This document shows positions 26,051 to 32,564 of a stretch of DNA of 33,727 bases, one piece after another. Source of the stretch: a virus. Location of the stretch: the IMG/VR virus record IMGVR_UViG_3300043409_000821, positions 1 through 33,727 of that record, one strand, 5' to 3'. Position 1 is the first letter of the stretch. Each line of letters opens with the position of its first letter. A program made the position numbers and the translations under genes. The notes under the pieces were generated by a model. The model was not told the DNA's origin, made no database searches, and worked only from the letters and a program-made list of their open reading frames with translations.

Positions 26051-26064
26051 TGTAGAAACAAAAG

Positions 26065-26092
26065 CCCCCCGGAGAGTGCAGGCTCCGGGGGG
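26065..26092. terminator. Strong GC hairpin, terminator-like on the minus strand
   Basis: CCCCCCGGAG (26065-26074) pairs perfectly with CTCCGGGGGG (26083-26092), loop of eight. On the + strand no T-run follows. On the minus strand the stem is followed by CTTTTGTTTC, the look of a rho-independent terminator. No minus-strand gene is visible, so its use is unclear; on the + strand it could protect mRNA or weaken transcription before the helicase gene. Confidence 0.6.
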
Positions 26093-26139
26093 TGACGACG
26101 AGTCCTAAACAAACAAACAACAAAGCGCAACGACACGCT

Positions 26140-27255
26140 ATGCAGACAAACGATCATCCGGAAACCATTTCGACGCAAGCTTTTCTGCTTCGTCCCTACC
26201 AGCAACGAGCGGTTGAATGGGCCAAGTCTGGCGCTGATGGACTCATCATCGCTCCTGCGGGATGCGGCAAGACCCTTATCGCTTCCTCGATCATCAAGCA
26301 TTTCGCACAGGATCCTAGCTGGACCTTCGGATGGATTGCTCCCACTCGCGAGACCTGTCTACAGGCACACGCCTCTCTCGCGGCTATGGGAGTGGATGTT
26401 AATCGGGTGGACATTCGATGCCCCCACGAATCAGTCGATTTCAGCGGCAAGAAGCTGATCATCGTGGATGAGGCGAAACATGCGCCTGCGACCACATGGA
26501 AGCGTATCATCGAGTCCTGCAATGGACTTCGGTTCGGTTTCGATGCCACTCCTTGGTGCGATGATGGCGAGCGTAATCAAGAACTCCGCAAGCTGTTCCG
26601 AGGCAACCAGTTCGAGATCAAGCGCGAGGAACTCCAAGGAGTGTTGGCCCACGCAACTGTTCACATGTCCAGCGCCTCGGACCAATTCATTGAGGACCGG
26701 ATCAATGATCGCATCGAGAAGCTCTTCAACGAACGCAAGAGGTACATGCGGATCCGGCACGAGGAACTCCGTGCCATGTGCGCTTGGGAATCAATCACCG
26801 AGATCGGCATCTGCGAGAACATGGCTCGGAACGCTTCAGCGATCATGTTCGCCAATTGCTCGCTTGGCCCCACGCTGGTGCTCGTTCCCAGGGTGACGCT
26901 CGGAGAGGAGTACGCCCGCATGATAGAGGGGTCCGTGCTCGTTCATTCCAAGATGAAGAAGTCGCTTCGTAAGCAGGCCATGGATGACTTCAAGGCTGGA
27001 AGGATTACGAAGATGATCGCAACCTCTCTGGCCGACGAAGGACTGGATCTTCCCAACGTAGAGAACCTGATCATGGTGTCCGGAGGCAGAAGCGCCCAGA
27101 AGACCATCCAGCGGGCCAGCCGTGCGCTGCGTAGGACTGAGACCAAGACTGATGCTCGTATCTACGACTTCTTGGACAACTTCCACCCCATGGCGATCGC
27201 GCACTCCAAGAAGCGCATGAAGTGTTACAAGGAACTCGGGTGCCACATCATATGA
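26140..27255 (+). CDS. SF2 DNA/RNA helicase
   Basis: 371 residues from the ATG at 26140. Motifs in order: L-R-P-Y-Q-Q-R-A-V (about 17-25), Walker A A-P-A-G-C-G-K-T (38-45), Ia I-A-P-T-R (66-70), motif II V-D-E-A-K-H (109-114, lysine where DEAH proteins have H), motif III F-D-A-T-P-W (134-139), and motif VI Q-R-A-S-R-A-L-R-R (about 324-332). This is an SF2 helicase of the UvsW/RecG-like compact type common in phages, probably remodelling branches for the neighbouring recombination proteins. The same frame opens with GTG at 26092, but that start overlaps the hairpin. The ATG has a CA-rich leader. Confidence 0.85.
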   Translation: MQTNDHPETISTQAFLLRPYQQRAVEWAKSGADGLIIAPAGCGKTLIASSIIKHFAQDPSWTFGWIAPTRETCLQAHASLAAMGVDVNRVDIRCPHESVDFSGKKLIIVDEAKHAPATTWKRIIESCNGLRFGFDATPWCDDGERNQELRKLFRGNQFEIKREELQGVLAHATVHMSSASDQFIEDRINDRIEKLFNERKRYMRIRHEELRAMCAWESITEIGICENMARNASAIMFANCSLGPTLVLVPRVTLGEEYARMIEGSVLVHSKMKKSLRKQAMDDFKAGRITKMIATSLADEGLDLPNVENLIMVSGGRSAQKTIQRASRALRRTETKTDARIYDFLDNFHPMAIAHSKKRMKCYKELGCHII

Positions 27256-28335: not shown

Positions 28336-28535
28336 GCGAGCAAAACAAATCAGAGACTGTACGACTTACATTTAAGGGATTGCTGTCCATCTACCTGCAA
28401 GATGAAAAAACGGTGATGGAAGTCTACAACGCAACCGAGCTGTGCTGCCGTAGAAACAACTGGGGCATCGCAATCGACGAGAGCAACCGATTAGATTTTG
28501 TTCCGATGATGAAAGTGGAGGAGGACAAGCCGTGA
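28332..28535 (+). CDS. Small hypothetical protein (67 residues)
   Basis: ATG at 28332 overlaps the preceding stop and has a good ribosome binding site, AAGGAGG at 28321-28327. The protein has R-L-T-F-K-G-L-L-S-I-Y-L, a V-M-E-V-Y-N-A-T-E-L-C-C-R-R helix and an acidic tail. Overlaps the PP-loop gene by four bases (GTGA), so the two are probably translated together. No recognised function. Confidence 0.55.
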   Translation: MSEQNKSETVRLTFKGLLSIYLQDEKTVMEVYNATELCCRRNNWGIAIDESNRLDFVPMMKVEEDKP

Positions 28536-29323
28536 CTGAGATATTTTCTCACGGAGGCGGAACTCAATCCGCTGCCATCACAGCTTTGATCGTTCAAGGA
28601 AAGCTGCCCAAGCCAGACTTCGTTTGCATCGTCGATACGGAGCGTGAAAGGCCAACGACATGGCAATACTTAGATGCTGTAATCCGCCCAGCACTCGCGT
28701 CAGTGGGGCTTGAGGTACATCGGATTTCAAAAAGCAATTGGGGAAGCAAACCTCCGCATGGTATTGATTGGCTTTCTCATAATAAAAACACAGTTCTACT
28801 GCCAGCATTTACTTCCGTTTCAGGAGAATCTGGAAAGATGTCTGGGTTTTGCTCCAAGACATGGAAAATTCAGGTTCTTGATAGATACGTCAGAGAATAT
28901 TTAAGAGTACCAACAAAAGAACAGCGTCACTGGATTGGTTTTAGTTTAGATGAAGCTAGGAGGGCAATGCGGATGATGGATGGAGACGAATACAAAGCTG
29001 GAAGGATTCGGCTTCCATTGATCCATGACGTTCCTCTTCGACGACAGCAAGCAATCCGCGTTGTAGAAAATATGGGTTGGCCAACCCCACCTCGATCCGC
29101 TTGTTCAATGTGTCCAAACCAAGCAGACAACGAATGGAGAGATTTAAAAACAAACCATCCATCTGAATTTGAGGCAGCGTGTGAACTAGAGAAAGAAGTG
29201 CAATCCGTTGATCCACATGTGTGGTTTCACAGTTCTTGCAAGCCGTTGAGTGAAATTGATTTCACTGAAGAACCGGATCTTTTCGGAGATTCTGCATGCA
29301 AATCTGGAGTGTGTTTTCTATGA
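28532..29323 (+). CDS. PP-loop (PAPS reductase-like / adenine nucleotide alpha hydrolase) protein
   Basis: 263 residues from a GTG start in a GTGA overlap. The ATP pyrophosphatase-type loop is S-H-G-G-G-T-Q-S (6-13), followed by V-D-T-E-R-E-R-P-T-T-W-Q-Y (35-46), the second nucleotide motif. Cysteines are arranged as C107 (G-F-C-S-K-T-W-K), C191-x2-C194 (C-S-M-C-P), C236, C256 and C261, which could bind an iron-sulphur cluster or zinc. Known members activate a substrate with ATP to move sulphur or modify nucleic acid; phages carry relatives of unknown substrate. DNA or tRNA modification is possible, but there is no partner gene here. The gene is more A/T-rich than its neighbours, which hints at recent acquisition. 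Confidence 0.75.
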   Translation: MTEIFSHGGGTQSAAITALIVQGKLPKPDFVCIVDTERERPTTWQYLDAVIRPALASVGLEVHRISKSNWGSKPPHGIDWLSHNKNTVLLPAFTSVSGESGKMSGFCSKTWKIQVLDRYVREYLRVPTKEQRHWIGFSLDEARRAMRMMDGDEYKAGRIRLPLIHDVPLRRQQAIRVVENMGWPTPPRSACSMCPNQADNEWRDLKTNHPSEFEAACELEKEVQSVDPHVWFHSSCKPLSEIDFTEEPDLFGDSACKSGVCFL

Positions 29324-29523
29324 ACGAATCTATGACACTTGAAGAACGAATCATAAAAGTAGCTGAAGAGCCGCTTGGTCTTTGGACGGTGCAGCGCAAC
29401 AAGCGCGAACTCCGCGCAATCGCTCTCGATGTCCGCAGGCTGGAGGATCGGTTGAAACAACTGGAGCAGGAGAACGACGCAATGAGAGCGGATCTGCTGC
29501 TGTGGCGGGAGGCAAAACTGTGA
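29320..29523 (+). CDS. Small coiled-coil protein (67 residues)
   Basis: ATGA overlap with the PP-loop gene and GTGA overlap with the next. A helical protein with T-V-Q-R-N-K-R-E-L-R-A-I-A-L-D-V-R-R-L-E and D-R-L-K-Q-L-E-Q-E-N-D-A-M-R, heptads typical of a coiled coil. Similar short coiled-coil proteins precede HTH genes in other phages. No enzymatic motif; perhaps a dimerisation or adaptor protein. Confidence 0.55.
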   Translation: MNESMTLEERIIKVAEEPLGLWTVQRNKRELRAIALDVRRLEDRLKQLEQENDAMRADLLLWREAKL

Positions 29524-29762
29524 GCTTGCTTGAAAAATTAGGTCTCACAAAGCAATCAATGGAGAAGATGCTTGGTGTCGTCGCTCCGTTAAAAAAGACT
29601 AAAATCAAACGCTATCGGAGATACGAAACTGTTCCCGCAGATATCCGCAAAGCCATTCTTGGAGAGCATCCAAGCTACACTTGCCGAGAGTTAGCTAAGA
29701 AATATGGTGTCTCAGCTTCAACCATATACGACATCAGAGAAAGTAAATCCAAAATTGAATGA
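29520..29762 (+). CDS. Mini helix-turn-helix protein 1 of three
   Basis: 80 residues, GTG start in a GTGA overlap. The N-terminal 37 residues are basic with K-K-T-K-I-K-R-Y-R-R-Y. The C-terminal half is a helix-turn-helix: V-P-A-D-I-R-K-A-I-L (38-47), then E-L-A-K-K-Y-G-V-S-A-S-T-I-Y-D-I-R (57-73). Such HTH domains act as DNA-binding regulators. The same unit appears in the next two genes. It may regulate early or late genes, but no target is visible. Confidence 0.7.
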   Translation: MSLLEKLGLTKQSMEKMLGVVAPLKKTKIKRYRRYETVPADIRKAILGEHPSYTCRELAKKYGVSASTIYDIRESKSKIE

Positions 29763-29932
29763 CGATAAGAAATGATTCATACATACCAAAGCGCGGACAT
29801 ATACCACAAGCAGTAGTGTTAGAAGTGTTGGAAGACATAAAGAACAATAGAACATACAGACAAATTAAAGAAGACTACGCAGTCAGCATAGGTTGGATAC
29901 ACAAAATCAGACACAATAAGACCAGAAAATGA
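29759..29932 (+). CDS. Mini helix-turn-helix protein 2 of three (57 residues)
   Basis: ATGA overlap on both sides. The protein is nearly all HTH: I-P-Q-A-V-V-L-E-V-L (15-24) and Q-I-K-E-D-Y-A-V-S-I-G-W-I-H-K-I-R (35-51), aligning without gaps over the recognition region with the genes on both sides. It has a short basic N-terminal arm (P-K-R-G-H). Strongly A/T-rich DNA. Likely a small DNA-binding protein that may compete with or dimerise with its paralogs; inference only. Confidence 0.65.
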   Translation: MTIRNDSYIPKRGHIPQAVVLEVLEDIKNNRTYRQIKEDYAVSIGWIHKIRHNKTRK

Positions 29933-30204
29933 ACATACTCAACGAAATTAAAAGCGGAATCTCCAGATTGCTTGGAGTCCACAAGACAATGGAGACCAAA
30001 GAGGCTCCGAGAACTCTTAAGTCCAAACGTAGCCCAAAGCGTGGAAGGGGACGACCAAAGGGACTCAAAATACCGCAGCAGATTGTCGATGCGGTGCTGC
30101 AAGCCGATAAGAGCCTCACCATCAGACAGATAGCCGCAAAATATCGCGTTTCCTGCTTTTGGGTTTGGAGCGTGAGGGCAAAGAAGCTAAGGCTCAAGCG
30201 ATGA
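29929..30204 (+). CDS. Mini helix-turn-helix protein 3 of three, with AT-hook-like arm
   Basis: 91 residues, ATGA overlap with the previous gene and with the next. Residues about 36-45 (P-K-R-G-R-G-R-P-K-G) form an AT-hook-like motif that would grip the minor groove of A/T-rich DNA. The HTH follows: I-P-Q-Q-I-V-D-A-V-L (48-57) and Q-I-A-A-K-Y-R-V-S-C-F-W-V-W-S-V-R (67-83). It is the longest of the three paralogs and the one with two DNA-binding elements. Confidence 0.7.
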   Translation: MNILNEIKSGISRLLGVHKTMETKEAPRTLKSKRSPKRGRGRPKGLKIPQQIVDAVLQADKSLTIRQIAAKYRVSCFWVWSVRAKKLRLKR

Positions 30205-30383
30205 AATACCTGTCAAAGACTAAGCCAACCGTTGAGGTTGAGTTTGTTGCCGAAGCTCAACTGAGGATCGGTGAGACCAAGCGACTCTGCGTGATCTACC
30301 AACGAGGAGAGATCTTCTACGTTCGACCGAAAGCTGAGTTTTTTGACAAGTTTGTGCTGGACGAACCGCAGATCCAGCCTTAG
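30201..30383 (+). CDS. Small beta-rich protein (60 residues)
   Basis: ATGA overlap with the third HTH gene. Contains V-E-V-E-F-V-A-E-A-Q-L, then R-L-C-V-I-Y-Q-R-G-E-I-F-Y-V-R-P-K-A-E-F-F-D, a pattern that resembles small single-domain proteins of the DUF1653 kind. Last gene of the chain; its stop is followed by a non-coding stretch with a structured hairpin. Function unknown. Confidence 0.55.
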   Translation: MKYLSKTKPTVEVEFVAEAQLRIGETKRLCVIYQRGEIFYVRPKAEFFDKFVLDEPQIQP

Positions 30384-30440
30384 AAGTAAGCAGTCAGCGC
30401 GAGCCGTAGGAAGCGAGCGAGGACACTCAAAAAAGAACCC

Positions 30441-30560
30441 ATGTTCAACCAATTTCTCCCCATCCTTTTCGTGTACGTCGCGTTGGTTCTTCGCGAGTTC
30501 CTACCACGAACTGGATGGGGTTTCTATTTGTTACATGAACGAAGACAAGAAAACCCGTAA
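30441..30560 (+). CDS. Possible tiny membrane peptide overlapping the hairpin leader
   Basis: An ATG-to-TAA frame of 39 residues, M-F-N-Q-F-L-P-I-L-F-V-Y-V-A-L-V-L-R-E, with one hydrophobic segment. It spans the terminator-like hairpin and overlaps the next gene's start in another frame. No clear ribosome binding site. It could be a leader peptide for the replication genes, but may equally be chance. Confidence 0.25.
   Translation: MFNQFLPILFVYVALVLREFLPRTGWGFYLLHERRQENP
30458..30530 (+). terminator. Three-tier hairpin with T-rich tail before the replication genes
   Basis: Outer arms CCCCATCC (30458-30465) and GGATGGGG (30513-30520); middle arms TTCGTG (30468-30473) and CACGAA (30505-30510); inner arms TCGCG (30478-30482) and CGCGA (30492-30496) with a nine-base loop. 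TTTCTATTTG follows at 30521-30530. It looks like a terminator or attenuator for rightward transcription and lies five bases before the next ATG. Confidence 0.65.
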
Positions 30561-31272
30561 GGCTCCAGCCTTCCAGTTCTACGCTGACGACTTCTTAGCT
30601 GGAACCATAACGATGACCAACGAGGAAAAGGGAGCGTACATTACGCTGCTTTGCATCCAGTGGTCGCGTGAATCATTAACCGAAAGTGACTTTACTCGGG
30701 TCTGCGTTGGTATGCCACCGCATTCCCAACGCATATGCCAGAGTAAGTTCCAGATTGATGCTGAAGGCAACTTCCGTAATCCAAGAATGGAGACTGAAAG
30801 GGAGAAGCAGGATCAATATCGGCAAAAGCAGACAGATAACGCTAAAAAGAGATGGGTTGGCAATGCCACCGCATATCCCACTGCATTGCCAGTGGATATG
30901 CCAAACGTATGCTCTCCATCTCCTACTCCTACTCCTAATAAGAAAGATACAGCGGCTCCTAAGTCGCCATGGGAGGTTTCATTCGGAGTTGAGCTACCGG
31001 AGAGCTTGCGAACCGATAGCTGTCTCCAAGCCGTTAAGCTCTGGCTCCAGTACAAAGCCGAGAAGCGGGAAGGCTACAAGAAGACCGGACTTACCGCAGC
31101 ACTGACCAAGTGGTCCCGAGAGTTTACCGCTGCTGACTTCCCGACTGTCGTCGAGAACTCAATTGCTAGTGGATGGAGAGGAATTTTCCCGAAGAAAGAC
31201 TTGCAACAAACTTTATCAATAGCCGGTCAACCAAAGACCGTTCTCTCAGAAAACATTGCTGACTACTTATGA
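30535..31272 (+). CDS. DUF1376-type replication initiator / helicase loader-like protein
   Basis: 245 residues from the ATG at 30535. The N-terminal domain has A-F-Q-F-Y-A-D-D-F-L-A-G-T-I-T-M-T-N-E-E and G-A-Y-I-T-L-L-C-I-Q-W, the hallmark of DUF1376 (YdaU-type) phage proteins, which are winged-helix replication initiators. A linker follows, then a C-terminal part with A-V-K-L-W-L-Q-Y-K-A-E-K-R and A-L-T-K-W-S-R-E-F like helicase-loader domains. It is directly upstream of the DnaB-like gene, overlapping by four bases, which supports initiation/loading. The frame is open to 30343, but those residues lie inside the hairpin region and the previous gene. Confidence 0.8.
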   Translation: MNEDKKTRKAPAFQFYADDFLAGTITMTNEEKGAYITLLCIQWSRESLTESDFTRVCVGMPPHSQRICQSKFQIDAEGNFRNPRMETEREKQDQYRQKQTDNAKKRWVGNATAYPTALPVDMPNVCSPSPTPTPNKKDTAAPKSPWEVSFGVELPESLRTDSCLQAVKLWLQYKAEKREGYKKTGLTAALTKWSREFTAADFPTVVENSIASGWRGIFPKKDLQQTLSIAGQPKTVLSENIADYL

Positions 31273-32564
31273 GCGATCCCTTTTTTGCTGAAGACGACGA
31301 GTTTGGTTTGATTGGAGCGTGTATTGCTGGAGGCTCTGACATTTGCTTTGACGCATTCGCTGAAGTTCCAACAGCAGCAATTCAAAACGAACAGCTGGCT
31401 TTAACTTACGAAACCATAAAAAGCCTTATCACTCAAAACAAGCGAGTGACATTGCCGGAATTAATGAAGGAATGGAAACGAACCATTACAAGTTCAGCAG
31501 TACCATTTGAAGCTTGGAATCGCTGCGATGAGCTTTGCCCATCACCATCCGGTTACCCGATGTTCGCCAAGAGCGTTCTAGAAGCCCACCACCGGAGACA
31601 ACTCCGTTTCGCTGGAGACCGCTTGATTCGCGATTCCGCTGTGGTGACCCTAACCGTCGATCAAATCGTCGCTAATGCCGAGCAGGGACTCAGCGTTGAG
31701 GCTTCCAAAGACGATCTTCAATCCAGCAAGTCCGTTGTCTCAAGATTTATCGACTCTACCCAAGAGCGGTTCAACCGACGAGGACAGTTGAGCGGAATCA
31801 ATACCGGCTTCTTTCGACTCAACCAGATGACCGATGGGTTGCAGCTTGGAGAACTCGCCATCATAGCAGCGCGACCCTCGATTGGAAAGACCGCTATGGC
31901 GATTGCTATTGCAAAAGCGGCAACGATAGAAGACCAAGTTCCAACTTTATTTATATCTCTAGAGATGTCTGATGAAGCTATTATTAGAAGAATGGTTTCA
32001 ACTGTTGGATCTATCCCAATGCAAGATATTAAGACCGGAGAGATGGATCAGGGAGGTCTTAAAGCTATGAGTACCGCATCAGCTAAGATTGCAGCAAGTC
32101 CCCTACACTTTGCCTCTGGCTCCTCGGTGACCAACATATCGTCCATCACAGCAGTAATCCGCAGAGCGGTACGCAAGTGGGGAGTTAGGTTAGTCTTGAT
32201 CGACTACATTCAGAAGATCCACGGCAGCAAAGGAGCCGAGAAGAAAACCTACGAGATAGGCGAGGTCAGCGGTAAGCTCAAAGCAATCGCAGTGGATACC
32301 AAGACCGCCATCGTTGCTCTAGCGCAACTCAACAGGGAAAACGAAAAAGATAAGGGTCGCTCGCCCAGACTTTCAGACATAGGGGAGTCAGGACAGGTGG
32401 AGCGCGATGGGGATCTGGTGATGCTCCTGAACCGAGACCGCAACCAACCTCAGGGAGAAGCTATGGTCGCAATCGCCAAGCAGCGGGACGGAGAATGTGG
32501 AGCCGTAAAACTCTGGTATGATGGACGCTTCTGTCGGTTCTCTGAGTGCGGTATGGATACCTAA
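31269..32564 (+). CDS. Replicative DNA helicase (DnaB-like)
   Basis: 431 residues. Helical N-terminal domain (1-120), then a RecA-type ATPase: G-I-N-T-G-F-F-R-L-N at 176-185, Walker A A-R-P-S-I-G-K-T (201-208), S-L-E-M (230-233), Walker B L-V-L-I-D-Y-I-Q (308-315), L-A-Q-L-N-R (351-356) and the closing S-D-I-G-E-S-G-Q-V-E-R-D (369-380). It unwinds DNA at the replication fork as a hexamer. No primase or DNA polymerase is present in the window, so it would work with host enzymes. ATGA overlap with the initiator/loader gene. Length is close to that of bacterial DnaB. Confidence 0.93.
   Translation: MSDPFFAEDDEFGLIGACIAGGSDICFDAFAEVPTAAIQNEQLALTYETIKSLITQNKRVTLPELMKEWKRTITSSAVPFEAWNRCDELCPSPSGYPMFAKSVLEAHHRRQLRFAGDRLIRDSAVVTLTVDQIVANAEQGLSVEASKDDLQSSKSVVSRFIDSTQERFNRRGQLSGINTGFFRLNQMTDGLQLGELAIIAARPSIGKTAMAIAIAKAATIEDQVPTLFISLEMSDEAIIRRMVSTVGSIPMQDIKTGEMDQGGLKAMSTASAKIAASPLHFASGSSVTNISSITAVIRRAVRKWGVRLVLIDYIQKIHGSKGAEKKTYEIGEVSGKLKAIAVDTKTAIVALAQLNRENEKDKGRSPRLSDIGESGQVERDGDLVMLLNRDRNQPQGEAMVAIAKQRDGECGAVKLWYDGRFCRFSECGMDT

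Follow-up and report, generated by a model that had tools for sequence, protein, structure and literature searches.

Three consecutive, overlapping genes of a freshwater phage, called P1, P2 and P3 here, encode proteins that are almost certainly small HTH proteins of one family, as judged from sequence comparison and structural models, and that are predicted to bind DNA. The genes are under purifying selection, and the array they form probably supplies the phage with three sequence-specific regulators of its own transcription, brought together by the stacking of older lineages. The source is an IMG/VR virus contig of 33,727 bases with a GC content of 53%; this whole stretch is referred to below as the window. 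The three genes follow one another on the + strand, between short accessory genes and genes for replication (Table 1).

Table 1. Positions of the array, its neighbours and other features in the window
Feature	Positions	Strand	Description
Hairpin	26051-26148		strong G+C-rich hairpin, CCCCCCGGAG..CTCCGGGGGG, in an intergenic gap; terminator-like on the - strand
PAPS-reductase-like protein	28532-29323		PHROG 424, 4.4e-31; second match to the SspD defence model, 1.7e-16
Short coiled-coil gene	29320..29523	+	upstream of the array; stop overlaps the GTG of P1
P1	29520..29762	+	80 aa HTH protein, GTG start; P1/X lineage; N-terminal helix motif, then basic linker KKTKIKRYRRY, then HTH
P2	29759..29932	+	57 aa HTH protein, ATG start; no N-terminal helix, nearly bare HTH; found in double and triple arrays
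P3	29929..30204	+	91 aa HTH protein, ATG start; has the N-terminal helix plus an AT-hook-like arm; clusters with the downstream gene of double arrays; related to the lone gene carried by other relatives
GRGRPKG arm of P3	30043..30063	+	residues 39-45, immediately ahead of the HTH
s60	30201..30383	+	conserved 60 aa protein of unknown function, dN/dS 0.11; start overlaps the P3 stop (ATGA)
RNA-like element	30390-30539	+	between s60 and the initiator-like gene; 3' end includes the start codon at 30535
Replication-initiator/primosomal-like protein	30535..31272	+	PHROG 9327 primosomal protein, 8.8e-11; neighbour, outside the array
DnaB-like replicative helicase	31269..32564	+	neighbour; served as lineage marker

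The three proteins and their relationship

The three frames lie where a first-pass annotation of the window had placed them and overlap as it described, at the P1/P2 and P2/P3 junctions by the 4 bases ATGA. The flanking genes, before P1 and after P3, are joined to the array by the same kind of overlap. A six-frame search of the window for the residue pattern that it took to be common to the three gave exactly three matches, one each in P1, P2 and P3, and 100 codon shuffles of the window yielded none. The arms at the N-terminus also differ as it reported, being basic in P1, short in P2 and of the GRGRPKG type in P3.

The proposed similarity was recovered when the proteins were aligned. Single-pair BLAST matched P1 with P3 (33% over 43 aa, E 2e-7) and P2 with P3 (41% over 54 aa, E 2e-8); direct BLAST alignment of P1 with P2 found nothing, and the direct match of their profiles was weak (28.5%). 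Compared with the profiles of the P3/single family, P1 aligned over its entire length, N-terminal helix included (prob 98.5, E 1.6e-15), and P2 aligned across the HTH (prob 97, E 1.2e-10). The N-terminal helix, overlooked in the first-pass annotation, is common to P1 (LLEKLGLTKQSMEKMLG) and P3 (ILNEIKSGISRLLG) and is missing from P2.

In AlphaFold2 models of P1 and P3 this helix is joined by a loose basic linker to an HTH of three helices, which has a pLDDT of about 90. The helices are predicted at residues 11-18, 40-47, 55-62 and 66-79 of P1 and at residues 3-14, 50-58, 65-72 and 76-83 of P3, and both models contain the three-helix core with conserved recognition helix by which the HTH class is recognised. 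A Pfam scan of P1, P2 and P3 gave no match above the curated threshold; among 25 members of the family, weak matches were obtained to HTH_23 (15 members) and HTH_3 (11 members). Homology, the two models and conservation thus agree in pointing to what had been claimed, an array of very small, predicted DNA-binding proteins that differ in their arms.

Conservation and copy number

The frames are kept in relatives, with dN/dS values of 0.16 for P1, 0.12 for P2 and 0.15 for P3 (0.05 for the helicase, for comparison), and P1, P2 and P3 are therefore real genes under purifying selection. The arrangement P1-P2-P3 is present in 36 IMG/VR records including the window, that is, in 34 contigs found by a search with P3 and one (L046) from the helicase search, all with the three frames in order; P2-P3 is present in about 30 records and others have one P3-like gene. 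An ATGA overlap is found at every scorable junction in the relatives, in counts that include overlapping loci. Neither of the outcomes that the first-pass annotation had named as refuting it, a lack of structural similarity among the three or frames not kept in relatives, was observed.

Copy number, which the first-pass annotation had proposed to check in related phages, varies between one, two and three genes. In terms of distinct cassettes there are 25 of P1-P2-P3, 16 that are P2-P3-like, 13 with a single P1-type gene and 28 with a single P3-like gene, although the count of single cassettes may include doubles cut at contig ends. One further triple array, L083, has a different first member, a divergent HTH protein (L083:4210-4467) with the same N-terminal motif (GLTKEQIARLLG), for which two distant partial relatives were found. 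The helicases beside the two-gene and most one-gene forms are about 75% identical to that of the window.

The relatives are without exception metagenomic contigs, and many are fragments. Searches of 50,697 sequenced phage records by tblastn, with P3 and the single form as queries, found no homologue, and neither did searches of GTDB genomes that used the A3 profile and the helicase. The mini-HTH family was thus not found in the sequenced phage records searched, yet occurs in many freshwater phage contigs. Arrays of one, two and three copies occur naturally next to the same set of replication genes and allow a comparison of how a phage control circuit gains parts.

Origin of the array

The trees of the HTH are short (54-55 columns) and unrooted, and because they are so short only their strongest forks were used. 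P1 and the P1-type genes that stand alone in another phage lineage make up one side of a branch with support of 100/100. P2 and P3 group with the downstream members of the doubles, with support of 70/87. The AU test rejected a clade of P1, P2 and P3 (p=0.009) as well as a clade of P1 and P3 (p=0.002). The fork that places P1 elsewhere, together with these two rejections, makes the array look like a stack of older lineages. The "local amplification" of the first-pass annotation consequently fails as worded, since the three copies are not one another's closest relatives, and a recent local triplication is rejected by the one-clade test and the placement of P1.

Growth of the array would have started from a P3-like single gene, the form seen in many relatives. 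P2 would then have been placed ahead of it, probably as a tandem duplicate; P2 and P3 may be an older duplicate pair of this kind, with which the tree is compatible. A P1-type gene, elsewhere the single gene of another phage lineage, would finally have been set in front. We infer this order from single to double to triple, while the stacking itself is suggested by the tree evidence.

The AT-hook-like arm of P3

The first-pass annotation described one of the three arms as AT-hook-like, and the stretch (P)KRGRGRPKG of P3 does have an AT-hook core with basic flanks. The RGRP core with basic flanks is exact in P3 and in most doubles, and no Pfam AT-hook match was reported. The GRGRPKG arm is kept in the triple and most double arrays; many singles retain GRP only, other members have the variants KLGRPTG, KIGRPKG or QRGRPVG, and in some it is missing. 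It is absent from P1, from P2 and from the relatives L050, L062, L113 and L115. P3 shares with AT-hook proteins the RGRP core flanked by basic residues, but has a single hook that is confined to P3 and its closest relatives and is replaced in several others.

A GRP arm ahead of helix 1 is a trait of serine recombinases, and is found in P3 and most double and single members. The serine resolvases and invertases (Hin, Gin, Tn3 resolvase) carry, like P3, an AT-hook-like GRP arm right before a three-helix HTH, and by inspection the spacing from arm to HTH in P3 is one residue off that of Gin; unlike them, P1, P2 and P3 are without a catalytic domain. Membership of the resolvase DNA-binding domain family was rejected, with an hhalign probability to Gin of 0.3%, gapless scores at or below chance and no HTH_7 match listed in the Pfam scan of P1-P3. 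One account of Tn3 resolvase describes a short "AT hook", placed ahead of the HTH, that sits in the minor groove (PMC9943657), so that a similar role for the P3 arm can fairly be supposed by analogy.

Two P3-like genes (L050:1134-1421 and L112:795-1082) resemble hybrids of two arm types, with the N-terminal half as in two-gene phages and the arm and HTH as in L113-type singles. Their appearance suggests recombination within the gene.

Function of the array

Transcription regulation is the best reading of a set of individually weak profile and fold pointers combined with the context of sigma-region-4-like proteins. Among the 25 members, 20 gave weak matches to PHROG 836, "late transcriptional activator" (best 1.5e-4), and seven gave weak matches to Pfam Mor. 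In the fold search with P1, Mor and C of phage Mu were among the top matches, at insignificant scores (best E 0.28). Helicase-lineage loci without mini-HTH genes often have a sigma-region-4-like protein (Pfam Sigma70_r4 4.9e-8 in L080), which was seen in 42 loci with overlaps counted, and no helicase-lineage locus has both; such counts include overlapping fetches of the same contigs and are read as patterns of presence and absence, not as independent counts. The two kinds of protein occur together in the P1-type phages, and so they are not strict substitutes.

We therefore favour the reading that the array probably encodes three sequence-specific regulators of the phage's own transcription. 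The overlapping frames would allow coupled translation from one message in the early/replication region. P1 and P3 would dimerise, probably via their common N-terminal helix, with the HTH reading short half-sites; the GRGRPKG arm of P3 would add minor-groove contacts in A/T-rich DNA beside the half-site, in a resolvase-like manner; and P2, as a stripped HTH, would probably be a partner or a competitor. A possible but doubtful extension is that the slot between accessory and replication genes is a regulator-stacking site, where phages would combine HTH proteins from distinct lineages, whose N-terminal helices and minor-groove arms can be exchanged, into a combinatorial switch, in which homo- and heterodimers of P1 and P3 are tuned by the armless, helix-less P2. 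If true, the control circuit would evolve through changes in the number of copies and the type of arm.

The closest known parallel to this kind of action is an analogy and implies no membership. Mor and C of Mu (PF08765; PHROGs 836 and 532, late transcriptional activator) are middle and late transcription activators and are also small phage proteins with a C-terminal HTH; one report describes how Mor, as a dimer, occupies a pair of 5-bp inverted repeats that stand where a -35 element would be (PMC4390567). P1, P2 and P3 differ in their tandem copies and in having no larger N-terminal dimerisation domain. That domain belongs to proteins of approximately 130-140 aa (140 aa for C), compared with 80, 57 and 91 aa here, and in its place P1 and P3 have only short N-terminal helices. 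P1 scored 15.2 bits against PF08765, below the gathering cut-off of 24.9, and the hhalign probability to Mu C was 3.6%, so membership of the Mor/C family is not supported.

A scan of the region for sigma-70 promoters gave fewer sites than in shuffles, and no binding site or promoter attributable to P1-P3 was found there. The best match in a sequence search of the PDB with the family profile had a value of 0.003, to a chain named DBP48.

Small HTH genes of phages have roles outside transcription too. The proteins could bind at or near the replication origin and help to load the initiator and helicase encoded downstream, and in the helicase-lineage phages that have them the genes do sit shortly upstream of an initiator-like gene and a DnaB helicase. 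We regard this as unlikely, however, as the P1-type genes occur with a quite different replication gene and many phages of the same helicase family are without mini-HTH genes; nor were iterons noticed in passing.

Autoregulation of a cargo operon, in which the proteins would repress the small variable genes that precede them in the manner of Aca (anti-CRISPR-associated) proteins, seems to us quite improbable. The Aca HTH proteins are likewise very small phage proteins within operons of small genes, P1-P3 end a run of small and variable genes, and a fold search with P3 listed Aca11 among its weak matches. But no sequence relation between Aca proteins and P1-P3 was found, a PADLOC scan of P1-P3 and two neighbours identified no anti-CRISPR neighbour, the PADLOC matches of P1 are marginal (mad1 6.4e-4), and three regulators exceed the need of such a loop.

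The first-pass annotation also suggested that the proteins compact or silence A/T-rich DNA; such a nucleoid-like action, on the DNA of phage or host, is very improbable. The AT-hook-like arm of P3 and the abundance of basic residues in all three proteins speak for it, but there is one such stretch in one protein of three, several relatives have lost it, the genome has a GC content of 53%, and Pfam, PHROGs and NCBIfam gave no H-NS, Lsr2, MvaT or Rok match. That the genes are chance open frames or a sequence artefact, as their shortness and 4-base overlaps might suggest, is refuted by their retention in 35 other records at dN/dS of 0.12-0.16.

A structured element before the replication genes

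The intergenic element downstream of s60 has counterparts at L062:5058-5208, L106:7496-7646, L253:413-564 and elsewhere. A first structure of four helices and a pseudoknot, derived from one sequence, gave 99.1% standard pairs in a plain MAFFT alignment of 24 sequences, with 47 two-sided changes compared with 15.5+-2.8 in shuffles. A covariance model without pseudoknots found the element in 83 of 83 sources, most of which had been fetched by the pattern of its own core. An unsupervised covariation score on the alignment of these 83 sources ranked pairs of both pseudoknots among the top; the pseudoknot helices are outside the model that built the alignment, and the second had been spotted by eye before the score was run. 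This second pseudoknot is formed by GUAGGAA/UUCCUAC in some sequences and GUGAGAA/UUCUCAC in others. The full structure with two pseudoknots has 39 pairs, 26 of them with two-sided changes, and 97.1% standard pairs; its two-sided cells number 315, compared with 91+-13 in shuffles.

The element is found in helicase-lineage loci generally, including those without mini-HTH genes, and is missing from the P1-type phages; it is therefore not part of the HTH array. The gene downstream varies among the relatives (several initiator types, an HNH endonuclease) and the element stays. A 39-aa frame that runs through it (30441-30560) was rejected as a gene because relatives carry single-base insertions that change the reading frame but leave the pairing intact. 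Most simply, the element would be a structured leader RNA that controls the downstream gene, although it might still act as DNA, for example as an origin.

Rfam 15 contains no match to the element and the INPHARED phages gave none of note, while the DNA pattern of its conserved core occurs in at least 119 stretches of viral contigs. It is probably more novel than the array, and would matter more, as a conserved and apparently undescribed structured RNA lying right where translation of phage replication genes starts.

Other neighbours

Sigma-70 region-4-like HTH proteins are encoded near the mini-HTH position at L217:4257-4808, L226:4266-4781 and L080:3430-3825. Their C-terminal half bears a faint resemblance to the alpha subunit of RNA polymerase (2max_A, E 0.13) and they have a conserved CPHC end; those of the P1-type phages start with MSRIGRMLG, which resembles the N-terminal motif of P3. 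Short coiled-coil proteins form variable runs upstream of the array in many loci, as at L062:2716-4063 and in the window. They have the common pattern ERELNAANDRIKRLEEAGD..KAKEAKP, and in some relatives several stand in tandem.
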